A program made the translations under genes and the position numbers. Below, in pieces: positions 1 through 55,616 of a stretch of DNA of 64,000 bases (positions are counted from its first letter, which is position 1; each line of letters opens with the position of its first letter). The notes beneath the pieces were generated by a model. The model was given only the letters and a program-made list of their open reading frames with translations, did no database searches and had not been told where the DNA came from. Source of the DNA: Cyanobacteria bacterium SIG30 (GTDB lineage: Bacteria; Cyanobacteriota; Vampirovibrionia; Gastranaerophilales; Gastranaerophilaceae); assembly GCA_015152475.1 (NCBI GenBank), contig SUTW01000005.1, forward strand, positions 1-64,000. Direction: 5' to 3'.

Positions 1-832
1 ACTCTAAGTTCTTCTTTAATATTTGAATCATCAAACTCGGGAACTTTAATCGAGGCAATTTTTTCTGCCAAATATCTCAAACCTTCTCTTATAGGTTCAT
101 CATTATATTCTGGCATTTTGATGTTATTTATTTTTTCAACAAGTTCATTTAAGCTTTCTTTGATATTTGAATCATCAAATTCTGGGATATTGATATTACT
201 TATTCTCTCAACAATATCGCCCAAGCTTGCCTTAACACTTGAATCATCATATTCTGGAAATTCAACATTCTCAATTTTTTCTTTTAATTGAGATATTTCT
301 TCTCTAACATTATAAGTAACATCTTTTATATCTTCTTTTAAATCATAATTTAATTCTCTAACTTCTGATTTAATTTCATCTGCAATATCAGAAATATTGT
401 TTCTTAAATCATTATTTAATTTTTCTTCATCTATTGTTGGAATATAGATATTTCTTATTTCATCCTGAATCAAAGAAGTATTTCTTATAATTTCATCTTT
501 TGTACTTTGTCTTGTAACGTCAGATGCAATATTTAATTCATGTATTAATTCATCCTTTGTAATGTCAGGAATTTTAATATCTAAAATTCTATCTGAAATT
601 ACTCTAAGTTCTTCTTTAATATTTGAATCATCAAACTCGGGAACTTTAATCGAGGCAATTTTTTCTGCCAAATATCTCAAACCTTCTCTTATAGGTTCAT
701 CATTATATTCTGGCATTTTGATGTTATCTATTCTCTCAACAATATCACCCAAGCTTGCCTTAACACTTGAATCATCATATTCTGGAAATTCAACATTCTC
801 AATTTTTTCTTTTAATTGAGATATTTCTTCCT
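1..832 (-). repeat. 24-aa (72-bp) tandem repeats and a near-identical long direct repeat inside the giant ORF
   Basis: Bases 1-127 recur identically at 601-727. Bases 201-302 recur almost identically at 729-830, offset 528, i.e. 72 bp shorter. Units: VEFPEYDDSSVKASLGDIVERISN / INIPEFDDSNIKESLNELVEKINN / IKMPEYNDEPIREGLRYLAEKIAS / IKVPEFDDSNIKEELRVISDRILD. Confidence 0.9.
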
Positions 833-3800
833 TTATTGATGTAAATGCATTATTTGTATTTTCATTTATGTTATTTTTTAGCGCTTCTTCATCAATTTCT
901 TTTGGAAGTTTTATATTTGAAATTTCTACATTTAAAGCTTCTTTCGCGTCATTGATTTTATTTTCTAATTCATCAAGTGCGCTTTGAATTTTTGTTTCTA
1001 TTTGAAGAATTATCTCTTCTTGTTTGTCGTAAATTTTTGGAACAAGATTTATATTTGATGTGAATAATTCTTTTTGATTTTTAAGTTCTTCAAAAACTTT
1101 TTCTTCAATTTCTTTTAAGATATCATCAGTTTTAAGTTGAATTGAAGCCAAGGCTGTATTTTTTGTTTCTGAATCTTTTTCAATTCTAGCTAAATCATTT
1201 AATAAAATTCTTTGTTGGCTTTGAAGTTCATTTCTAACTTCTTGCAAAATGCTTTGACCAACATTTTCGATTCTTTGTTCTATGAATTCAGCATTTTTTT
1301 GGTTTTCTTCTTCTGTTGGTCTTAAATCTTCAATTTTTCTAATGTTTTCGGCAAAACTTTTTTGTTGAGATTCGATTTCATTTCTCAAAATTTGTGATAT
1401 ATTTTCTTCAAAACCTTTAAATTTTTCATTTAGGTCAAAAATGGTTTCTTCAGTTGTTTTATTGATTGAAGCCATTTGGGCTAAATCTTCAACAATAATT
1501 CTTTGTTGTGTTTGAAGTTCTGTTTTTATTTCTTGAGAAATAGTTTTTGAGAATAGTTCAATTCTGTCATTCAGTGAGGCAATATTTGCTTCTTCTGTTT
1601 TTTGAGAATTTGTTATTTTTAAAAGGTCAGAAACTAAAGCCTCTTGTTGGTTTTGAAGTTCTGATTTGAATTCTTGAGAAATTGTTTTTGTAAATAGATT
1701 TATTCTGTCATTTAATGCTTGAAGATTTGAATCCCTATTTTTTGGAGCATTTAAAATTCTTGAAACATCTTCAAGTAGTAATTGTTGATGTTTTTGAAAT
1801 TCTGATTTAAAATCTTGTGCAATATTTTTGACAACAAAATCAATTTGTTCATTTGATAAGTTGTTATTTTCGTTTTCTTCGTTATCTTTATTGCTTGTTA
1901 TTCTAGCAAACCCTGCAATAACGGCTTGATATTGTTTTTGAAATTCTGATTTAAATTCTTGCGTCAGAGTTTTTGACAGTAATTCAATTTGTTCATTTAT
2001 AATTGCAAGACTTGCTTCCTTTGTTTTATTGAGATTTGCAATTCTTGCAAAACCTGCATTAAATGATTGTGTTTGTTTAGATAATTCTTCTTTTAAGTTT
2101 TGGATAATATTTGTTTCAAGCAATTCAATTTGTTCTATATCAAGATTGTTTGAACCATTTTCTTCGTTTATTTTTGTTTCAAGTTTTTGTATAAGGGTTT
2201 TAATTGCAACGCTTGCATCATTGTGGATTGAAGCAAGAGCATTAACTTCGCCCAATAATTCTTTTGCAGAATGAACTTGCTGCCAGTTAATTTTATCAAG
2301 CTTGGCATTAAAATTTGTCATTTCTTCATTAAGTGCATTGGCCTGATTTTCATATAATCCATGGACCATTGAGTCAATTCTGTTTTCAAGGTCTGTGAAA
2401 CTTGTGTTTGAAAAATCGTCCATAGCAGCCATTTTTGACAAAATGTCGCCTGCTATAACATTTAGGTGTTCTGTATATTTAACAACAGATGCACTTAATG
2501 ATTCCGAGAATAATTGTTTTGTTTCATAAGTATTTGATTCAACACTATTTTTTATTGTTTCGATTTTTGAGTGCAAATTCGCTTCGTAATCACCTATTTG
2601 CTGAGTTAGTGAAGCAATTGTTTCTTTTTGTTCTCCAAATTCATCAAGAATACTTGTATTTATTGATTCAACACTTTCAGTCAAATTGTTTGAAACATCT
2701 TGCAAGTCGCGACGCAAATCTTGCGCAACATTTTGCATTACTTGCGTTTGTGTATCTTTGACTGTTTGAATAACTTTTTCAATATTTAATTTAATTTCAT
2801 CAAAAGTTAGTGAAAAATGTTTTTTGATTTCCTGATAAAGATTTGAACTGTCTGCAAGAATTCTATCTCTTGATTCGTCAAGAGTAAACATCATTTTTGG
2901 CATTATTTCATTTACTCTTTGAAGTATTTCAATGCCAGAATTCAATTCTCTTTCATTAAAACCATCTTGTATTGATTCAACAATGTCATCTAATTTTCTT
3001 GAAAGCAAATCAACTGATTTTGACATATTTTTAAGTTTGTCGTTTTTGTCGATTGATTCATCAATTCCAATTAAAGTTTCTTTTATTATATTTTCAATGG
3101 ATGTTTTTTGATTGTCGTTAATGTTTTTGAAATCATTTTTTAAATCAATAACTCCAATTAAAAGAGTTTTGATTTCCTTTTGAATTGAGTTAATTGCTTC
3201 TTCTTGGAAGTCATTTTTGATTATTTTATTATCTATAATGTCTCTTAAATCTGCAATGTTTGCGGCAACAATCTGTCTTATTTGTTCGAGATTTTTTATG
3301 TCAGCAGTTGCCAAAAGATCTTTTATTGAAGAAACTTTTTCTGCAATATTTTCGCCAAATGATTCCTTTAAGCTTGTGATATTAATTGCAAAGTTGTTAT
3401 CTAATTTCGCAATATCTTCTTTTATTTGTCTTGTTTCGTAACCTATATTTTGTTTTAGGGTGTTGTCTAAATTATTTAAACCAGTTGATAAATCCCTTAA
3501 ATTTTCTTGTAGTTTTAGAAAATTTTCATTGAATTTATCTTGTAAATTTTCATTTCCAAGAACTATTTGTCCTGTGAATGCTCTTGTTAAATCAGTTTTA
3601 ACTTCATTTGTTATTTCGTCTAGTTTTGAATTTATTCCTTTAATTACATCTTCAAGTTTGCTTATAGAGCCATCACCTTGCATTTCTAAAATTTTATTTT
3701 TTATAAATACAAGATTTTCTGTTGCTTTATCTTTTAAATTGTTATTTGATGCTTCAATATAACTTTTTAAATTGTCCAGGAATGAATTTATGGCACTTAT

Positions 3801-4580
3801 TTTATCTTCAAGTACAATAAGATCGCCTTTTGTTGTCACAACTTTTAATTGAGGCATTACGTCATTCAATTCGTTTGTTGTTTTTTGAAGTTCGGATATT
3901 GTTCTTGAAAGAGTTGATTCGTTATCAGTTATAAATTCAATAACACCATTTATGTCTTGATATTTGTGATCAATCACATTGACTGATGACACAATCATAT
4001 TTGCGGTTTTTATTATGCCGTCAAGGCGTGAATTTATATCCAAAAATGCTTGGTCATTATTTATTTTTTTAACTTCTGATATAAAATTGCCAAAATTTTT
4101 GTTTAAGATTAAAGTAACGCCTTCAAAACCTTTTGAAAGGGCAGTTAGGTCTTCCCTGATATTTTCAAAATCGGATTTATCTGTGCCTTGTTTATATAAT
4201 TCTTCAACTGAGCGTGACAGATTAACAAAAATATGTTCCTGTTCTTCAATTTTTTCTCTGACGTTATTAATTTCGTTTGAAAACTTTTTAACTTCGTAGC
4301 TAAAATTTTTAGAATCAATATTGTTTGCTAAATCTTTAATTGATTCTTCAAAATCCTGCAAGTTGTCTTGAAGATATCTGTTTCTTTCGTCGATTAAATA
4401 TCTTATGTGGTCTAAAAATTGATTTGCAAATTTTTCATTTGCATTGTCTGCAACTGTTCCAAGAGAATTTACTAGTTCGTTAAAAGCTCTGTTTAAATCG
4501 ACTTTTGTTGCAAATTGATTTTGCGAAAAGTCGTTTAATGCTTTTGTTATATTGTCTATTTTGTTCTCTATATTGCTCAA
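1..4580 (-). CDS. Giant coiled-coil/repeat protein, 3' end beyond the left window edge (at least about 1526 codons)
   Basis: Reverse-strand frame read by eye is open from a TTG start at 4580-4578 (LSNIENKIDNITKALNDFSQNQF...) to position 1. An AGAAAGG ribosome-binding site lies upstream. Frame was checked at about 4580, 2738, 605 and 5. Composition is heptad-rich in E/K/N/I/L. Missing from the ORF track, probably because no stop lies inside the window. Confidence 0.85.
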   Translation of the reverse strand, partial: MSNIENKIDNITKALNDFSQNQFATKVDLNRAFNELVNSLGTVADNANEKFANQFLDHIRYLIDERNRYLQDNLQDFEESIKDLANNIDSKNFSYEVKKFSNEINNVREKIEEQEHIFVNLSRSVEELYKQGTDKSDFENIREDLTALSKGFEGVTLILNKNFGNFISEVKKINNDQAFLDINSRLDGIIKTANMIVSSVNVIDHKYQDINGVIEFITDNESTLSRTISELQKTTNELNDVMPQLKVVTTKGDLIVLEDKISAINSFLDNLKSYIEASNNNLKDKATENLVFIKNKILEMQGDGSISKLEDVIKGINSKLDEITNEVKTDLTRAFTGQIVLGNENLQDKFNENFLKLQENLRDLSTGLNNLDNTLKQNIGYETRQIKEDIAKLDNNFAINITSLKESFGENIAEKVSSIKDLLATADIKNLEQIRQIVAANIADLRDIIDNKIIKNDFQEEAINSIQKEIKTLLIGVIDLKNDFKNINDNQKTSIENIIKETLIGIDESIDKNDKLKNMSKSVDLLSRKLDDIVESIQDGFNERELNSGIEILQRVNEIMPKMMFTLDESRDRILADSSNLYQEIKKHFSLTFDEIKLNIEKVIQTVKDTQTQVMQNVAQDLRRDLQDVSNNLTESVESINTSILDEFGEQKETIASLTQQIGDYEANLHSKIETIKNSVESNTYETKQLFSESLSASVVKYTEHLNVIAGDILSKMAAMDDFSNTSFTDLENRIDSMVHGLYENQANALNEEMTNFNAKLDKINWQQVHSAKELLGEVNALASIHNDASVAIKTLIQKLETKINEENGSNNLDIEQIELLETNIIQNLKEELSKQTQSFNAGFARIANLNKTKEASLAIINEQIELLSKTLTQEFKSEFQKQYQAVIAGFARITSNKDNEENENNNLSNEQIDFVVKNIAQDFKSEFQKHQQLLLEDVSRILNAPKNRDSNLQALNDRINLFTKTISQEFKSELQNQQEALVSDLLKITNSQKTEEANIASLNDRIELFSKTISQEIKTELQTQQRIIVEDLAQMASINKTTEETIFDLNEKFKGFEENISQILRNEIESQQKSFAENIRKIEDLRPTEEENQKNAEFIEQRIENVGQSILQEVRNELQSQQRILLNDLARIEKDSETKNTALASIQLKTDDILKEIEEKVFEELKNQKELFTSNINLVPKIYDKQEEIILQIETKIQSALDELENKINDAKEALNVEISNIKLPKEIDEEALKNNINENTNNAFTSIKEEISQLKEKIENVEFPEYDDSSVKASLGDIVERIDNIKMPEYNDEPIREGLRYLAEKIASIKVPEFDDSNIKEELRVISDRILDIKIPDITKDELIHELNIASDVTRQSTKDEIIRNTSLIQDEIRNIYIPTIDEEKLNNDLRNNISDIADEIKSEVRELNYDLKEDIKDVTYNVREEISQLKEKIENVEFPEYDDSSVKASLGDIVERISNINIPEFDDSNIKESLNELVEKINNIKMPEYNDEPIREGLRYLAEKIASIKVPEFDDSNIKEELR
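1160..2000 (-). repeat. Degenerate repeats of about 47 aa (141 bp) inside the giant ORF (approximate bounds)
   Basis: Units such as NDRINLFTKTISQEFKSELQNQQEALVSDLLKITNSQKTEEANIASL / NDRIELFSKTISQEIKTELQTQQRIIVEDLAQMASINKTTEETIFDL, spaced about 141 bp apart. Confidence 0.75.
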
Positions 4581-4611
4581 TTTTTAATACCTTTCTATAA
4601 CAATGGCAATT

Positions 4612-5628
4612 TTACACGCTTTTGTATTCTTTTTCAAAACCAAACAAAGAGCTTACGCTTTGATCATCATGGATTCTTGAGATTGCTTCACCTAAAAGTG
4701 GCGCAATGCTTAATTGAGTTATTTTTGAAGGAATATAATCGTTTCTTAAAGGAATTGTATTTGTTACAATTACTTCTTTGATTGGTGCTTCTTCTAAGCG
4801 AGATAGTGCAGGTCCTGAGAATACTGGGTGTGATGCACAAACATATACTTCCTTAGCACCTTCTCTGATTAAAAGTTTTGCAGCTTCGCATATTGTTCCT
4901 GCTGTATCTATAATGTCATCAAACATAACGCATATTTTGCCCTTTATGTCACCAATAACGTGGTCTGCAATTGCTTCATTGTGTTTAGCACGTCTTTTGT
5001 CGATGATTGCAAGTGGGCAATTTAAGTTTTTAGCAAATACTCTTGTTCTTTGAACACCGCCTGTATCAGGGCTCACTGCAACCAATTCGTCTTTTGGAAG
5101 ATTTAAATCTTTTATGTATTTAACTAAAATTGGAGTTGAATAGATGTGGTCAACCAAAATATTAAAGAAGCCTTGGATTTGCCCTGTATGTAAATCCATT
5201 GCAAGTACTCTGTTTGCACCGGCTGTAGTTAATAAATCGGCAACAAGTTTTGCGGTAATTGCTTCTCTTCCAGATGTTTTTCTATCTTGTCTTGCATATC
5301 CATAATAAGGAATAACTGCTGTGATTGTTTTGGCACTTGCTCTTTTAAATGCATCAATCATAATTAAAAGTTCAACAAGGTTTTCATTAACAGGATCACA
5401 TATTGGCTGAACTATGAAAACATCATCACCTCTTATGCTGTCTTGAACCTGAACATAAATTTCGCCATCTGAGAAATTTTTAATTATCATTGGACCAACT
5501 GATGTACCTAAATAATCTGCAATTTCTTGTGCGAGAACTGTGTTTGAACGACCTGAAAAAAGTTTAATGTCGTGAGTTGGAAGAATTTTTGCATCTAGTT
5601 CTTGCGCAAATTCAAAACCTGTTTTCAT
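4612..5628 (-). CDS. prs: Ribose-phosphate pyrophosphokinase
   Basis: FSDGEIYVQ, IPYYGYARQDRK and DDIIDTAGT PRPP-loop motifs. Confidence 0.97.
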   Translation of the reverse strand: MKTGFEFAQELDAKILPTHDIKLFSGRSNTVLAQEIADYLGTSVGPMIIKNFSDGEIYVQVQDSIRGDDVFIVQPICDPVNENLVELLIMIDAFKRASAKTITAVIPYYGYARQDRKTSGREAITAKLVADLLTTAGANRVLAMDLHTGQIQGFFNILVDHIYSTPILVKYIKDLNLPKDELVAVSPDTGGVQRTRVFAKNLNCPLAIIDKRRAKHNEAIADHVIGDIKGKICVMFDDIIDTAGTICEAAKLLIREGAKEVYVCASHPVFSGPALSRLEEAPIKEVIVTNTIPLRNDYIPSKITQLSIAPLLGEAISRIHDDQSVSSLFGFEKEYKSV

Positions 5629-6939
5629 TTAATTTATTCCTTTCTTATTTTTAACCCAATTTTTATATTCCTTTTGTTCACTACGAGTTAAGGCTAGTGA
5701 ATCTTTTTCGACATCTTTTGTGATTGACGACAATGCTCCAACAAAAGCATTTTCGTTTAATGTTACTGGTGCAACCAAAACGCAATTTGAACCAACAGAA
5801 ACACCATCTTTTAAAATGGTTTTATTTTTTTCTTTTGTTATTGAATTATAGTTGGCAGTAATGGTTCCTGCACCAATATTTACATTGTTTCCAACTTCGC
5901 TATCACCTATGTAACTTAAATGGCAAGCATTTGTTTTTTCTCCAATAGTTGCGTTTTTTAATTCAACAAAATTGCCGATTTTTGAATTGTTGCCAACGAT
6001 ACAATTGCCTCTTAAATGAGCCATAGGGCCAATTTTGCAACTTGAACCTATTTTGTTTACACCTTCTATATATGTTGATGGGAAAATGACTGTATCTTGT
6101 TCAATTATTGTTTCTGGGGAGATATAAGTATTATCAGGGTCAACTATTGTGACGCCGTCAATCATTAATTTTTTAAGGTGTTTTTTATTCATATAAGAGG
6201 TTGCAATGGCCAATTGTTCTCTTGAATTTATTCCAAAAATTTCTGTATTGTCTTTGATTACATATCCTTGCACATTCAATTGATTTTTAACTGCCCAGGA
6301 AATGATATCTGTTAAATAGTATTCATTTTGTGCATTGTTGTTTTGAAGTTCATTAAAAGCTTTTTTAATTTTGTTCCAATTTAAAAGATAAATTCCGGCA
6401 TTAACTTCCTTAATGCTTTTTTGGTCTACATCTGCATCTTTTTCTTCCACAATTGCAACAACATTATTATTGCTTCTTATAATTCTTCCATATCCAAAAG
6501 GGTTTTCAAAAATTGCAGACATGACGGTCAAGTCTGAATTATTGTCATTATGGTATTTTATAAAATCTTCAAGTGTTTCTTTTGTAATTAAAGGTGTATC
6601 GCCACACAAAATAATTACATTTCCTTCAAAATTTTTTAAATTATCAAGGCACATCATAACAGCATGCCCTGTTCCAAGTTGTTCCTTTTGTTCAACAATG
6701 GCGGTTTTTGTCGGTAATTTTGACAAATATTCTTGAACCATATCAAAACCGTGTCCCGCAACAACAATCGGTTCAATATCACCTAACGCCCTTAATACCC
6801 ATCCAACTAGTGGTTTGGAAAAAATTTCATGAAGAACTTTTGGTTTTTGGCTTTTCATTCTTGTGCCTTTTCCGGCGGCAAGAACAATTGCTTTTATGTC
6901 TTTTGAACAATTTGTCATTTTGGTCTTATTTTCCCTCAA
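5629..6939 (-). CDS. glmU: Bifunctional UDP-N-acetylglucosamine pyrophosphorylase / glucosamine-1-P acetyltransferase
   Basis: VLAAGKGTRMKSQKPKVLHE N-terminus plus hexapeptide-repeat C-terminus; start may be the internal MTNCSKD. Confidence 0.96.
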   Translation of the reverse strand: MRENKTKMTNCSKDIKAIVLAAGKGTRMKSQKPKVLHEIFSKPLVGWVLRALGDIEPIVVAGHGFDMVQEYLSKLPTKTAIVEQKEQLGTGHAVMMCLDNLKNFEGNVIILCGDTPLITKETLEDFIKYHNDNNSDLTVMSAIFENPFGYGRIIRSNNNVVAIVEEKDADVDQKSIKEVNAGIYLLNWNKIKKAFNELQNNNAQNEYYLTDIISWAVKNQLNVQGYVIKDNTEIFGINSREQLAIATSYMNKKHLKKLMIDGVTIVDPDNTYISPETIIEQDTVIFPSTYIEGVNKIGSSCKIGPMAHLRGNCIVGNNSKIGNFVELKNATIGEKTNACHLSYIGDSEVGNNVNIGAGTITANYNSITKEKNKTILKDGVSVGSNCVLVAPVTLNENAFVGALSSITKDVEKDSLALTRSEQKEYKNWVKNKKGIN

Positions 6940-13760: not shown

Positions 13761-15326
13761 GTGTCAATTTTTTACGTGTTTTGTTTTTTATTAGTTAAGT
13801 GCACAAAAATGAATATAAAACAAATTCAAAAAACCAATAATTACAATATTTGTGTGTCATCAAGCTTGAAAGGAAATATATCTTTCAAAGGTGATACTAA
13901 AAGGACTGATACTTCAAGTAATGCTGATTTTGCTTCAAGAGAAGCTTGTGAAGGATTAAAAAGTCTTGCTTTTGCAAAAATGTCTAATAATTCCTCAGAG
14001 TTAGATAATTTAGATAGAGTTGTTTCAAGTGGTGAAAAGGCAAAAGTTTTAGTAAAAACAAGAGAAGAATTTCCTTATTATTTTTTATCAAGCATGCATG
14101 ATGCCATTGAAAATCTTGGTCAACTTAAAGTTGTTCAGCTTATTTTAAATAAAACAGAAGATGAAGGGCAAGATTATATCTATAAAGATACTGAACAAAT
14201 TTTGGGCATTGTAAATGCTTGCAAAAATCCTGATGTTTCTGAAATTGCACTTAATTTAATTGAAGAAAATGATATTTCTTTTGAGCCAGAAATTTTTGTC
14301 AAGATGAGTGATTTAAAAAATAATTCAAAAGATAAATTTGATTATGTTATTAATTCGAATTATCTTTTGCGTTATTTAGATAGTACTTTATCATTAGCTA
14401 GTTATGGGCCACGAAATTTAATTGACGAAATGGATGTAGATGAATTTCCAAAAATGGAAAAAATTATGTCTGATGTTGCAAATAAATACGGTAATAAACG
14501 CTATATAAAATCTATGGTTGATTTGTATTATATCAATCAAGATGTTTATGATTATGCAATGAGTTCAGATGTTTTACTTAAAGATTTTTTTGCTTATTCA
14601 AGAAGTTTTGAAACCAATGAAATTTTAACTGTAAATACCTTAAAAATGCTTGAAGAAAGTTGCAGGGCCAATACTGGTGGTGATAAAAATTTGAGAGCTT
14701 ATGTTTACGATAGTGATGTTTTTAACAATGAAGATAAATTAAATAAATATTTATCTCAATTTGTTGTTAAAGATGATTTTGAAGTTTATAGATGCGACAG
14801 AAACACAGGGCTTTTTGAAAATATTTCAATAGACCACACTCCGCTTGGGCGCAAAGCAAGAAGAATAATACATTCTCATCCTTTTAAATTTAAAAAAGAT
14901 TTGATTATACCAAATGATAAAAAATATTTTACGAGCGACAAAAAAAGTTTACATGAATATTTTTCAGGCAAGAAAAATCTTACATTGTCTGACGCCATGC
15001 TTATTGCAAAATATGGTGATGATAAATATTTAAATGATTTATATGAGGCAATTAAAAATGCAGAAGTAATTGATGAAAGATTTAAGTCATCAACATTATC
15101 TAAAAAGTTTGCAGATAATTGGTCATATAACAATAATGATAAAACCGCAAAAATGAAATCCAGACTTTTGGTCAAAAAGGGTTGCGAAGGCGCTTATGAC
15201 ACATCAAGAACTGGACAATTTGAATATATTTTAAATAATCATCCAAAGAAAATAAAATATCATGATGTTAAGTTTGATAGAGAAAACAATATTTTTGAAT
15301 TAATTGGAACTGTTGAAAAAAATTAA
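13761..15326 (+). CDS. Hypothetical protein; likely start is ATG 13809
   Basis: Long ORF, no recognised domain; MNIKQIQKTNNYNICVSSSLKGNISFKGD N-terminus. Confidence 0.75.
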   Translation: MSIFYVFCFLLVKCTKMNIKQIQKTNNYNICVSSSLKGNISFKGDTKRTDTSSNADFASREACEGLKSLAFAKMSNNSSELDNLDRVVSSGEKAKVLVKTREEFPYYFLSSMHDAIENLGQLKVVQLILNKTEDEGQDYIYKDTEQILGIVNACKNPDVSEIALNLIEENDISFEPEIFVKMSDLKNNSKDKFDYVINSNYLLRYLDSTLSLASYGPRNLIDEMDVDEFPKMEKIMSDVANKYGNKRYIKSMVDLYYINQDVYDYAMSSDVLLKDFFAYSRSFETNEILTVNTLKMLEESCRANTGGDKNLRAYVYDSDVFNNEDKLNKYLSQFVVKDDFEVYRCDRNTGLFENISIDHTPLGRKARRIIHSHPFKFKKDLIIPNDKKYFTSDKKSLHEYFSGKKNLTLSDAMLIAKYGDDKYLNDLYEAIKNAEVIDERFKSSTLSKKFADNWSYNNNDKTAKMKSRLLVKKGCEGAYDTSRTGQFEYILNNHPKKIKYHDVKFDRENNIFELIGTVEKN

Positions 15327-26426: not shown

Positions 26427-28280
26427 TTGAATTCAGAGAATAGAACAGACAAGAAAATACAGAATTCCATGAATGAAACCCTTGGCTATGAAGGCATTGG
26501 GGGATTTTCCAACCCCATAAAAAACCACGGGCTTCAAAGAACTAACAGACAAACCGTAAATAGACTCTATAGTTCATATAACAAAACAAATTCAAAAACT
26601 TATCTGCAGGATTATGCGGATTTATTAAAAGAGCTGAATGCAATTTTTGCAACCAATTTTAACAGTAATCAGCTTTTTTATTCCCTTCACAATATTTTGG
26701 TAAATCATGAATTAGTTAATTTTACGGCACTTGGTTTAGTTAGTGATTCTTCTCAATGTATAAATGTGAGATTGCTTGATAAAGCGGGTTCATCTTATAT
26801 GTCAAAAATTTTATTGACAGCGGAAGATAACTTGATTATTAAAGCTTTTAATACGAGACAAAATCAAATTAATCATGATTCTGATTTTCTTAAAATACCA
26901 TATTTATCAAAATCGCAAGTTATCGTTTTTCCACTTTTGGTAAAAGGTGATGTTCTTGGTGTTTATATAATTGGTTGTGAAAGCCAAAGTATTACTCTTG
27001 GAGTAGAGCTTTATAACTTAATTACAAGAATGATGTCTTATTTTATTCAAAACGAACAACTAAGCGAGATTGTGACAAAAAATACGGATATTGATTCGCT
27101 TACAGGTCTTGCTAATCACAAGAGTCTTCAAGAAGAATTGGCATCTCAACTTAAAATTGCTCAGCAAAATGATTCAAAAGTTTCAATTTGCTTATTTGAT
27201 ATTTTGAATATTTCCCAAATTAACCGTGAATTTGGTCACGCTAAAGGCGATGAAATTATTAAAGCTGTTGCAAATAAAATTTCTCAAAATAATAGAAATA
27301 CTGATTTTGCCGGCAGATATGGTGGCGATGAAATTGCAGTTATAATGCCAGGTGCAAGTACTGAAGAAGCAAAATATGTCGCAGAATATTTGAATTATAC
27401 AATAAGCTGTATTTATATTGATGACGTTGGACCAGTTAAAGTTAGTGCTGGTATTGCAACATATCCAGATACAACAGTGGATCAAGAAAAATTATTAATT
27501 TTGGCTGAACAAGCCATGGGTATTTCAAAGAGTAAAAGTTACGAAAGTGGCAACTCGGTTATTGTCACAAGCCAAGATGTTGATTTCTGGGATGATGACG
27601 CCCTTAAATCTTTTGCTGAAATTTTAATAAGACGTCATGCACAAATTGGTATTAACTTTGAAGAAGAACTTGTAAGTAAATTCCATGATGAAAAGATTAT
27701 ATCTAATCAACATTTACTTGAAGTTGTTAAATCTCTTGCAAGCACGATAGATGCTAAAGATACTTATACAAAAGGTCACTCAACTTCTGTTTCAAGATAT
27801 TCAGAAGCACTTGCTCGTGCAATTAATCTTCCTGAAGTTGAAGTTGAACGCATTAAACTTGGCGCACTTCTTCATGATATTGGTAAAATTGGTATTCCAG
27901 AAAACATTTTAAGAAAACCAACTATGCTTAATGATGAAGAGTGGGAAATTATGAAACAGCATCCTACAATTGGTGCTGATAAGGTTCTTGCACCAAATGA
28001 ATCATTAAGAGATTTGATTCCTATGGTTAAATTCCATCATGAACATTATGATGGAACTGGTTACCCATTTGGTTTAAAGGGTGAAGAAATTCCTTTATCT
28101 GCGCGTATTGTTTCAATCGCAGATGCTTTTCATGCGCTTGTTAGTGACAGACCTTATCGCAAGGGTTTAAGTATTAATAAAGCTTGTGAAATTTTAAAAA
28201 TGGGCGCTAATGTTCAATGGGACAGAGAATTAGTTAGACAGTTTGTTCAAATTGCGCCTTCGCTTTCAACAAGTGTATAG
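26427..28280 (+). CDS. GAF-like / GGDEF / HD-GYP signalling protein
   Basis: GRYGGDEIAVIMPG; LGALLHDIGKIGIPENILRKP; HHEHYDGTGYPFGLKGEEIPLSARI. Confidence 0.93.
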   Translation: MNSENRTDKKIQNSMNETLGYEGIGGFSNPIKNHGLQRTNRQTVNRLYSSYNKTNSKTYLQDYADLLKELNAIFATNFNSNQLFYSLHNILVNHELVNFTALGLVSDSSQCINVRLLDKAGSSYMSKILLTAEDNLIIKAFNTRQNQINHDSDFLKIPYLSKSQVIVFPLLVKGDVLGVYIIGCESQSITLGVELYNLITRMMSYFIQNEQLSEIVTKNTDIDSLTGLANHKSLQEELASQLKIAQQNDSKVSICLFDILNISQINREFGHAKGDEIIKAVANKISQNNRNTDFAGRYGGDEIAVIMPGASTEEAKYVAEYLNYTISCIYIDDVGPVKVSAGIATYPDTTVDQEKLLILAEQAMGISKSKSYESGNSVIVTSQDVDFWDDDALKSFAEILIRRHAQIGINFEEELVSKFHDEKIISNQHLLEVVKSLASTIDAKDTYTKGHSTSVSRYSEALARAINLPEVEVERIKLGALLHDIGKIGIPENILRKPTMLNDEEWEIMKQHPTIGADKVLAPNESLRDLIPMVKFHHEHYDGTGYPFGLKGEEIPLSARIVSIADAFHALVSDRPYRKGLSINKACEILKMGANVQWDRELVRQFVQIAPSLSTSV

Positions 28281-28345: not shown

Positions 28346-30046
28346 ATGTCAGACGAAGAAAAAAGTATTATCGAAAGCTCTTATGATTTTATTAAAAAGT
28401 CATTTGAACTTCGCAATTTGAAACTTTATAAAGAAGCAATCGAGATGCTATATAAAGCTTTAAATTGTGATGATATTTCGCCAAAAGATGTTGAAATTAC
28501 ATCTCAAATTGGCGATTTGTATTTTCTTTTAAAAAATTATGACAGAGCAATTGAGCAATATGAAAAAGTGTTAGAATCAGACAGACTTCACAAACACACA
28601 CTTTTCCAGATGTGCAAGATATATTTTATGCAAAAGAAATACAAAGAGGCACTTAAATTAGTCGAAGATTTATGTGCTAATTCAACTTCTCCTGAAAATT
28701 TTGTACAATATTTTAAAGTTATGTATGAACTTAATATGTATGAAAAAATGCAGGAAGTTTATAATGACTTAGACGCAGAATGTAAAAATAACGAAGAAAT
28801 TCTTTATATAATGTCATTGATTGGAACAGAACACAAATGTGATTTTCTTAAAAAAACCGTTGAAGTTAATTCAAATAATAAAGAAGCACATTTTGATTTA
28901 GGTGTTGTTTACTTTGACGAAAAAGACTATGATAATGCAAAAAAACATTTTCAAATAGTTGTTGAAAATCAAAAAAATGCAAAAGCACATAACTATTTGG
29001 GTTTAATATATCAAATTGAAGGAAAATTCCACGAAGCAATTGAAAATTTTTATAAAGCTGTTCAAATAGATAAGATTGAAGCTGAATATTTTTATAATCT
29101 TGCAAAAGCTTATATTGATATACACTGGTTTGATGAAGCGCAAACTGCTATTCAAAAATCCTTAAGGCTTGTCCAGCTTGAAAAAGACAAAAATATTGAT
29201 TTGGGACATCATTATTATATTTTTGCTTGGATTAATAAACATAAAAAAAATTATAAAAATGCGCTTTTGAATTTAGATTTGATTGATAAGAATTCAAAAA
29301 TGGCGCAAGATGCTCTTATTTTAAGATATTCCATTGATTTTGATATGGGTGATGTGATAAGCGCTAAAATAAAACTAGAAAGCCTTTACGAAAAAGAAGA
29401 AAACAAGAAAAATTTAAATCTTCTAAGTGTTCTTGGTGAAATATATAAAGAACTTAAAATGTATGATAAATCAATCAATATTTATCTTGAAGGCTTAAAG
29501 TGTTCACCTGATTCATATGACTTTTTATCAGGTATTGCAGAAGCATATATTGATTTTAAAGACTACGATAATGCAATTTTTTATACCAATAAATTAAGAG
29601 AAATTTATCCAACATCTGCTGATGCTTGCAATTCTTATGCAAGAATTTATTATCGCAAAAAACAATACAAGGAAGCTTTTGAGGAGTTAGAAAAGCTTGT
29701 TAAAATTGATACCAATAATGCGGAAGCTTTTTATTTTATGGGTCTTATTTCAAATGATTTAGATAATCCGGCTCTTGCGCAGGACTATTTGAAAATAGCT
29801 TTAAATTTAAAACCTGACAGTGCAAAATATTATGCTCAATTTGCTCGTTCATATGAACTTTTGGGAAGTTTTGATTCAGCACTTCTTTATATTAAGGAAG
29901 CAATTGATATTGTGCCTTCAGATATTAGTTTTATGAAAAAAGCAAAAGAATATTCAAATAAATTAGGTGACACAAAGGCTATGATTTTTTACGAAAATCA
30001 TATTATCAGATTGAAAAAATTATTAAGAGGTGATAAAGAAGAATAA
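28346..30046 (+). CDS. Long TPR repeat protein
   Basis: Many TPR units (AHFDLGVVYFDEKDYDNAKKHFQIVVE, AHNYLGLIYQIEGKFHEAIENFYKAVQ). Confidence 0.9.
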   Translation: MSDEEKSIIESSYDFIKKSFELRNLKLYKEAIEMLYKALNCDDISPKDVEITSQIGDLYFLLKNYDRAIEQYEKVLESDRLHKHTLFQMCKIYFMQKKYKEALKLVEDLCANSTSPENFVQYFKVMYELNMYEKMQEVYNDLDAECKNNEEILYIMSLIGTEHKCDFLKKTVEVNSNNKEAHFDLGVVYFDEKDYDNAKKHFQIVVENQKNAKAHNYLGLIYQIEGKFHEAIENFYKAVQIDKIEAEYFYNLAKAYIDIHWFDEAQTAIQKSLRLVQLEKDKNIDLGHHYYIFAWINKHKKNYKNALLNLDLIDKNSKMAQDALILRYSIDFDMGDVISAKIKLESLYEKEENKKNLNLLSVLGEIYKELKMYDKSINIYLEGLKCSPDSYDFLSGIAEAYIDFKDYDNAIFYTNKLREIYPTSADACNSYARIYYRKKQYKEAFEELEKLVKIDTNNAEAFYFMGLISNDLDNPALAQDYLKIALNLKPDSAKYYAQFARSYELLGSFDSALLYIKEAIDIVPSDISFMKKAKEYSNKLGDTKAMIFYENHIIRLKKLLRGDKEE

Positions 30047-53744: not shown

Positions 53745-55616
53745 ATGAAAATTAAAAATTTTATTATGGGTGCAACCGTGGCGGCTTCCTTATTTGCGCT
53801 TACGGTACCCGTTTCTTATGCGGCTTGCGATAAAGGCTGTCCTGTTCCAGAGGAGATGAAAGCTCCTTGTGCTCAGGAGTGTTCAAAAGACAAGGTTCAA
53901 CCTTGCAATTCGCAATGTACAAGATGTAATGAACTTCAAGATGATTGTAATTGTCCAAAAGAAATTACAACAGGTGCCGCTGCAAACATTTGTGACACTA
54001 ACAAAATGACAACACAAATTTATGCTTATCCAAATTCGGTTTATGGAAACTCGAAAGCTTCTGTTGTTGGCGAAGATAATAACGCAACAATTTTTGCCGA
54101 CCAAATTGGAGCTTCCCGTGGTGTTTTTGTTGAAAACACTGACTGTTTAACTGGCGCTGCAGCACCTGTTATTGGTGATACTTGTTTTGATGCAGATGAA
54201 ATCAATATGCCTTGTGGTTGCGATAAAAATACCGATACAATAAATATTCAGTCACCAACTTCAATTGAGGCCACTAAAAACTCAATAGAACCACTTAAAT
54301 TAAATGGGAATATGACTGGTGGTGCATCAAGTTTGACCGAATATTATCCAGATGTTCCTGATAATCATTGGGCAGCACCAGAGATAGACAGATTAACTGA
54401 AAAATGTGTTCTTGCAGGTTATCCAGATGGTTATTTCAAGCCAAATCGTTCTATTACTCGTGCAGAAGTTGCTTCAATGTTAGTCAAAGGTTATAACCTT
54501 GAAGATACTCCATTGAGTTCCGAAGGTAATTTTGCTGATGTTCCAAATTGTCACTGGGCGCATGATTCTATTAATAAAGCAGCCACAAATGATATGATTG
54601 AAGGACACAATGGCAAGTTTATGCCAAATAAAAATATTACTCGCGCAGAGGCTTTAACTATGGTTTCAAAAGGTGTAAATTGTCCTATGGACTGCGAAAA
54701 AGCTGATGAGATTTTATCTCAATATTCAGATTCTTCATCAATTCCATCTTGGGCAAAAGAACCAATTGCTAAAGCTATTCAAAATGGCGCGTTAGATAAT
54801 ATGCCAAATAGTTCAAATTTAAACCCTAATAAAAAAGCATCTCGTGCAGAAGTTGCTTCTATGCTTCAAAATATGAGAATTGCAGGTGGATATGATTCTT
54901 CTGTAAGATCTGCTTGTGGTGCTGCACCAGTTGCAAAATCATTTGTACATAAAGAGACAAAAGTTTCAATTCCAACACTTGAACTTACAATGAATGATAT
55001 GATAAATTCAAAAAACGCAAATGTTGGAGAACAGTTTGCTGCAACAACAGTAAATCCTATTACAATTGGTTCGACTACTTATCCAGCAGGTTCTAGAGTA
55101 AATGGTAAAATAGTTGAAGTTATTAGACCTACAAAAAATAACAAAGGTGCTATTAAATTATCATTTAATGAAATTGTTGGTTGTGATGGGGAAAAATATG
55201 CACTGCCAAAACAAATTCTAACAGCAAGGGTTCATAATGCAGAGAGCGTGAATGGATTTGCAAGATTCTTGCAATGGCCATTTACCTGGACAGGTTCTTT
55301 GATAGGTACAACGGGTAGAACCATTGGCGGTATGATTGCAGGTGTTTCAAATGCTGCGGAAAACGTTATGGATAACTTTGGTACAGGTACGTCAGAATTA
55401 TTAACTGGCCAATTTAAAGCCTCAGGGCGTAGTTATCAGGATTCTGCAAAAGCACTTGTTAAAGCACCAGTTGATGTAACAAGAACTGCCTTATCTGGTA
55501 CTTTAGGATTATTCCAAACAACAACTGATGAAATTGCTTATCTTGTAGACAAAGATGGTTTCCCTTTGTCTCAGGTAAATCCAAAACAAAAAATAACAAT
55601 TGCTTTTGGCGAGTAA
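53745..55616 (+). CDS. Secreted SLH-domain protein with Cys-rich N-terminus
   Basis: Signal peptide; CDKGCPVPEEMKAPCAQECSKDKVQPCNSQCTRCNELQDDCNC; SLH motifs YPDVPDNHWAAPEIDRLTEKCVLAGYPDGYFKPNRSITRAEVASML and FADVPNCHWAHDSINKA...ITRAEALTM; strong AAAGGAGG RBS. Confidence 0.9.
   Translation: MKIKNFIMGATVAASLFALTVPVSYAACDKGCPVPEEMKAPCAQECSKDKVQPCNSQCTRCNELQDDCNCPKEITTGAAANICDTNKMTTQIYAYPNSVYGNSKASVVGEDNNATIFADQIGASRGVFVENTDCLTGAAAPVIGDTCFDADEINMPCGCDKNTDTINIQSPTSIEATKNSIEPLKLNGNMTGGASSLTEYYPDVPDNHWAAPEIDRLTEKCVLAGYPDGYFKPNRSITRAEVASMLVKGYNLEDTPLSSEGNFADVPNCHWAHDSINKAATNDMIEGHNGKFMPNKNITRAEALTMVSKGVNCPMDCEKADEILSQYSDSSSIPSWAKEPIAKAIQNGALDNMPNSSNLNPNKKASRAEVASMLQNMRIAGGYDSSVRSACGAAPVAKSFVHKETKVSIPTLELTMNDMINSKNANVGEQFAATTVNPITIGSTTYPAGSRVNGKIVEVIRPTKNNKGAIKLSFNEIVGCDGEKYALPKQILTARVHNAESVNGFARFLQWPFTWTGSLIGTTGRTIGGMIAGVSNAAENVMDNFGTGTSELLTGQFKASGRSYQDSAKALVKAPVDVTRTALSGTLGLFQTTTDEIAYLVDKDGFPLSQVNPKQKITIAFGE

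Follow-up and report, generated by a model that had tools for sequence, protein, structure and literature searches.

What is the long minus-strand reading frame at the left edge of this contig, and what could a giant protein of this kind do in the cell? The window, that is, the whole stretch of 64,000 nucleotides analyzed here (G000:C8:1-64000), starts with the first base of contig C8 in the genome of a Candidatus Gastranaerophilales bacterium (1.49 Mb, 18 contigs). The original prediction was that the minus strand is open for about 4.58 kb from a TTG start with a ribosome-binding site, 31 nt from prs and in the same direction, that it leaves the left edge, and that its product is almost entirely coiled coil with layered repeats and no enzymatic domain.

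Coding status and the assembly break

Reading the sequence confirmed the frame and its setting. The frame reaches base 3 without a stop, over 1526 codons; the TTG lies 31 nt after the prs stop, and glmU, prs and the giant ORF are codirectional (Table 1). The short plus-strand ORFs opposite the giant ORF are antisense shadows. The giant ORF itself was indeed missing from the ORF track, because its frame is open at the left sequence end.

A congener (G002; locus L111, CANQDZ010000012.1, Candidatus Gastranaerophilales isolate Lapin-005) has a complete, collinear orthologue of 2151 aa, whose start codon, 26 nt beyond prs, is likewise an alternative one (not ATG). The window protein is 68% identical to it over residues 1 to 330, 40% over residues 331 to 830, 57% over residues 831 to 1230 and 62% over the last ~200 residues. 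The corresponding Ka/Ks values are 0.22 for the N-terminal part, 0.40, 0.28 and 0.20 for the C-terminal part, with synonymous differences near saturation (pS, 0.57 to 0.64); prs, for comparison, gives 0.03. The collinear, complete ORF in the congener and the Ka/Ks of 0.20 to 0.40 mean that the giant ORF is not a chance frame, and the comparison demonstrates that the predicted ORF does encode a protein and is kept by purifying selection. An untranslated antisense or degenerate frame might have been suspected from its absence from the ORF track, but that omission is explained by the open frame end, and both the Ka/Ks values and the conservation over about 40 genera speak against it. We regard this reading as refuted as far as the sequence permits, its remaining probability being negligible.

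Where is the rest of the protein? The original prediction looked to a leftward extension of the contig for the stop and the C-terminal domains. The extension itself is blocked, since the first 127 bases repeat a segment further in and the assembly stopped inside that repeat; the C terminus was nevertheless located, on contig C11 (4927 bp) of the same genome. C11 contributes 510 codons to the stop in the same frame and direction as the giant ORF. Its piece starts with SDIADEIK, which is residue 1397 of the window protein. The window protein breaks off within a later copy of the repeat, at a point 70 residues before the C11 start point, so that the joined protein has at least 2,106 aa (~240 kDa). 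Directly after the stop, C11 carries a 156-aa ORF that is 66% identical to the congener's 157-aa ORF, and the congener's gene order (glmU-prs-2151-aa ORF-157-aa ORF) matches that of the window plus C11. This synteny supports the C8-C11 join.

The left end of C11 (L006:1-382) consists of 48-bp tandem repeats, perfect or nearly so, whose minus-strand sequence is MALGEEGGDSERTVTT and which are open in several frames; it is another repeat-caused assembly break. Because the repeats of the giant gene break assemblies, metagenome-assembled genomes will easily lack the gene or have it truncated.

Table 1. Locations of the giant ORF, its parts and associated features. Plain numbers are window positions; residue numbers are those of the window protein.
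Feature	Location	Strand	Remarks
Giant coiled-coil ORF	3..4580	-	TTG start at 4580; 1526 codons within the window, no stop
Shine-Dalgarno-like AGAAAGG	4590..4596	-	9 nt upstream of the TTG of the giant ORF; read from the sequence
prs, ribose-phosphate diphosphokinase	4612..5628	-	Context gene
glmU	5629..6939	-	Context gene; first of the glmU-prs-ORF run
Conserved N-terminal module (A1), residues 1-240	3861..4580	-	At or near the start of homologous ORFs
ATKVDL motif, residues 24-29	4494..4511	-	Beta-layer consensus-like; AF2 helix break
TTKGDL motif, residues 249-254	3819..3836	-	Second beta-layer-like motif; AF2 helix break
47-residue repeats, residues 801-1180	1041..2180	-	Copies near 812, 860, 907, 957, 1004, 1048 and 1099
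24-residue [IV]x[IVM]PE[FY]DD repeats, residues 1181-1526	3..1040	-	Genus specific
Exact repeat of 601-727	1..127		Contig C8 ends inside the repeat
Join to C-terminal part	295..393		98/99 bases match the C11 right end, G000:C11:4829-4927
C-terminal continuation of giant ORF	L006:3394-4926	-	L006 is contig C11
Small conserved protein	L006:2915-3385 (-); L040:11465-11938; L042:2494-3000		No Pfam match
260- to 280-aa protein of the glcD locus	L058:15625-16428; L193:1936-2730; L207:12425-13237

Conserved ends, repeats and predicted fold

Comparison of the homologues demonstrates that both ends of the predicted protein are conserved and that the rod between them grows and shrinks through repeat turnover. 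The layering of the repeats is real by repeat-lag analysis against shuffled sequences. The best lags are 7 residues (residues 1 to 330), 29 and 11 (331 to 830), 47 (801 to 1180) and 24 (1181 to 1526); those of 47 and 24 lie far above shuffles, and those of the first two regions only slightly above. The 24-residue repeats, with their IxIPExxD breaks, correspond to a 72-bp DNA repeat at 99 to 257. Such IPE repeats are essentially limited to the window's genus, which suggests that the middle has been rebuilt lineage by lineage.

The window part of the protein contains no cysteine, has 30% large hydrophobic residues and carries a net charge of -107. Its hydrophobic periodicity is strong (z = 18.6 over the whole window protein, with a period of 3.64), being heptad-like in residues 1 to 250 (3.44), hendecad-like in residues 251 to 750 (3.66 to 3.68) and mixed elsewhere. 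AF2 models of residues 1 to 600 and of the congener's last 600 residues, built with 2 to 3 sequences, are all helix at low confidence (pLDDT, 46 and 41), with helix breaks at the ATKVDL, TTKGDL and IPE sites. Together these results support a giant, helical, repetitive and coiled-coil-like protein, as originally predicted. On the periodicity and the all-helix models, the protein very likely has the 80 or more coiled-coil residues that define coiled-coil-rich proteins (CCRPs; PMC7002697). Its highest 19-residue hydropathy is 0.92, in keeping with the solubility of CCRPs, and no membrane segment was found in the window protein.

Pfam scans of the giant protein and its homologues gave no model above cut-off, which agrees with the predicted lack of an enzymatic domain, and searches of PHROGs and PDB sequences returned generic coiled-coil similarity only. 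The nearest Pfam model in all five long homologues scanned was Apolipoprotein (PF01442; E values of 1e-5 to 1e-11, sub-cut-off). Could its amphipathic helices then coat membranes or lipid in the manner of apolipoproteins or perilipins, instead of self-associating as a coiled coil? The whole-protein period lies near the 11-residue helix repeat, as such a coat would have it. However, the matches are far below the curated gathering cut-off of 90 bits (26 to 44 bits; 27.1 bits for the window protein), 30% large hydrophobics suits the 2-in-7 or 3-in-11 cores of coiled coils and is low for lipid-binding helices, and residues 1 to 250 are heptad-like. We therefore consider a lipid coat improbable.

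The two ATKxDL-type motifs raise another question, since they resemble the beta-layers known from trimeric alpha/beta coiled coils, which in some cases form part of trimeric autotransporter stalks (PMC4786415). L040 has TTKGDL at the same site, and L041 has ATKDDI there. A trimeric, adhesin-like extracellular or surface fibre would fit these motifs as well as the repeat-driven length variation, which is common in adhesins. Yet the beta-layer consensus also occurs in nonsecreted proteins, and neither end carries a recognizable export or attachment signal: no signal peptide was recognized from the hydropathy profile (N terminus, MSNIENKIDNITKAL), and Pfam scans of both ends found no anchor domain, SLH or sorting motif. 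A surface fibre thus seems highly improbable. A strong claim of an alpha/beta coiled coil was also considered and reduced to a weak structural hint, because the enrichment of the motif is modest (16 occurrences versus 4.7 in shuffles, over 39 related, nonindependent proteins).

Distribution and gene neighbourhood

Alignments of the N-terminal end (A1; 17 sequences) and the C-terminal end (A2; 10 sequences) served as search profiles. A2 matched 58 of the 60 genomes of the same family, in 40 of 41 genera, and A1 matched 45 of the 60; the family genomes nearly always hold a single long frame of ~800 to 2,870 codons (assembly-broken copies are shorter). A class-wide search matched only four genomes in other families, all of them weakly (no E value better than 4e-6) and within short frames, and a phylum-wide search with A1 matched other families in only three genomes, again weakly and in short frames. 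In nearly all complete homologues read, including distant members, the A1 match starts at residue 1 or close to it, and the A2 match runs to the last residue or close to it; because the profiles fall at opposite ends of the ORFs, these matches are not random cross-matching of coiled coils. Our searches show one copy of the giant gene per genome in almost every sampled member of one Gastranaerophilales family.

The profile search detected no homologue in genus g8 (two genomes). Hence, the giant gene is either not strictly indispensable or has diverged beyond detection there. A diverged copy kept at glcD in the g8 genomes was looked for and not supported.

The prs-adjacent locus had been put forward for a conservation check, and adjacency to prs turned out to be limited to a few genera; elsewhere the giant gene lies by UDG, glcD or other genes. 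The order glmU-prs-ORF is found in the window's genus and in L046, where no UDG-superfamily gene intervenes. The order is glmU-prs-UDG-ORF in L043, L045 and L141, and UDG-ORF without prs in L194, L197, L218, L219 and L220. The UDG call rests on Pfam in L045, on similarity to the L045 protein in L194, L197 and L218 to L220, and on size and position alone in L043 and L141. In many other genera the giant ORF and the start of a glcD-like gene share ~10 to 16 bp (35 at most), and a 2-oxoacid:ferredoxin oxidoreductase operon lies divergent to the giant ORF. A functional meaning of the prs adjacency was considered and rejected, as most Gastranaerophilales prs loci have no giant gene alongside. Since the giant gene has moved between metabolic neighbours that differ between genera, the neighbourhood says little about function.

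These distributions bear on the idea of a phage or mobile-element tape-measure-like protein, for which the ruler-like anatomy and a weak PHROG tape-measure match in 1 of 10 members (E = 4e-4) could be cited. Against it stand a near-universal, single-copy family gene with housekeeping neighbours and the metabolic, chromosomal surroundings of the fetched loci, in which no phage genes were recognized nearby. The chance of such an origin is, in our estimate, very slim.

In the window's genus, a small conserved protein of ~156 to 168 aa directly follows the giant ORF; in L042 it lies near the giant ORF, beside a GHL10 gene. At the glcD locus, a 260- to 280-aa protein without a Pfam or NCBIfam match lies near the giant ORF and is conserved across genera. 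Elsewhere in the window, the plus strand encodes a 623-aa protein that matches the S-layer homology (SLH) domain three times (53745-55616), a 566-aa TPR-repeat protein (28346-30046) that adjoins a GGDEF/HD-type c-di-GMP protein (26427-28280), and a 521-aa ORF with a GTG start and no Pfam match (13761-15326).

Possible role and known systems

We propose that the giant protein is a cytoplasmic coiled-coil rod that acts as a scaffold or spacer, a reading to which we give a probability of about 0.55. The protein would stay in the cytoplasm and oligomerize in parallel through its coiled coil; its conserved ends may bind partners, other copies of the giant protein, the membrane or the nucleoid, and the rod between them would set a distance or build a filament-like network. 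A rod of 2,100 aa that is helical throughout would measure about 0.3 µm, given the helix rise of 0.15 nm per residue. A structural role at the scale of the cell is plausible because this length is comparable with the width of a described Gastranaerophilus cell, 0.5 µm (PMC5877343). Several points count against the proposal: coiled coil alone is no predictor of polymerization (PMC7002697), the low pLDDT of the AF2 models gives no hold on oligomer state or end structure, the metabolic neighbours indicate no process, and g8 has no detected homologue. Of the roles originally suggested, filament and scaffold stand, still as suggestions, with conserved ends and an elastic middle in their favour, and the surface fibre is disfavoured, since no signal peptide or membrane segment was recognized.

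Might the protein instead be an intermediate-filament-like cytoskeletal protein, whose molecules join head to tail and side by side into shape-determining filaments, like crescentin or the coiled-coil-rich proteins of cyanobacteria? The long coiled-coil rod, with its interruptions and its short, conserved modules at either end, would suit this, filament-forming CCRPs exist in related photosynthetic cyanobacteria (PMC7002697), and the best PDB match of the A2 profile is crescentin (E = 0.001). However, chemoreceptor coiled coils score about equally, the match is at the generic coiled-coil level with no single stretch significant, and the giant protein is 2 to 6 times longer than crescentin. We consider such a filament protein unlikely.

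A bolder version of the scaffold reading, possible though doubtful, is that of a lineage-defining Gastranaerophilales scaffold whose ends sit on fixed partners and whose length evolves freely, which would make it a new bacterial cytoskeletal or ruler family. If so, the rod, at up to ~2,900 aa, could when extended span much of the cell width.

Our literature search turned up no relevant work on coiled-coil proteins from Gastranaerophilales or Melainabacteria, and the family appears to be undescribed; its general kind is that of the bacterial coiled-coil-rich proteins. The protein is nearly core to a common lineage of gut bacteria, the nonphotosynthetic relatives of cyanobacteria, and would give a way into the cell biology of Gastranaerophilales, so far unstudied. 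Being single-copy and family-confined in our searches, the gene would also serve as a marker.

How does the giant protein compare with known systems? Alpha/beta coiled coils, exemplified by Tcar0761, DUF1640 and trimeric autotransporter stalks, contain beta-layers of the consensus [aliphatic]-A-T-K-[polar]-[DE] as hexad or nonad insertions (PMC4786415). FATKVD (residues 23 to 28) and VTTKGD (248 to 253) resemble this consensus, and the AF2 helix breaks there; unlike in those proteins, there are just two near-match sites in 1526 residues and no consecutive nonads. With Apolipoprotein A1/A4/E (PF01442) the giant protein shares amphipathic helices and a near 11-residue periodicity, but it is bacterial, acidic and several times longer. 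From crescentin and the filament-forming cyanobacterial CCRPs (PMC7002697) the giant protein differs in its much greater length, in end modules without clear homology to theirs, in its limitation to one family and in its strong repeat-driven length variation. Like them, however, it is predicted to be soluble and nearly all coiled coil, with an interrupted rod and without an enzyme domain.
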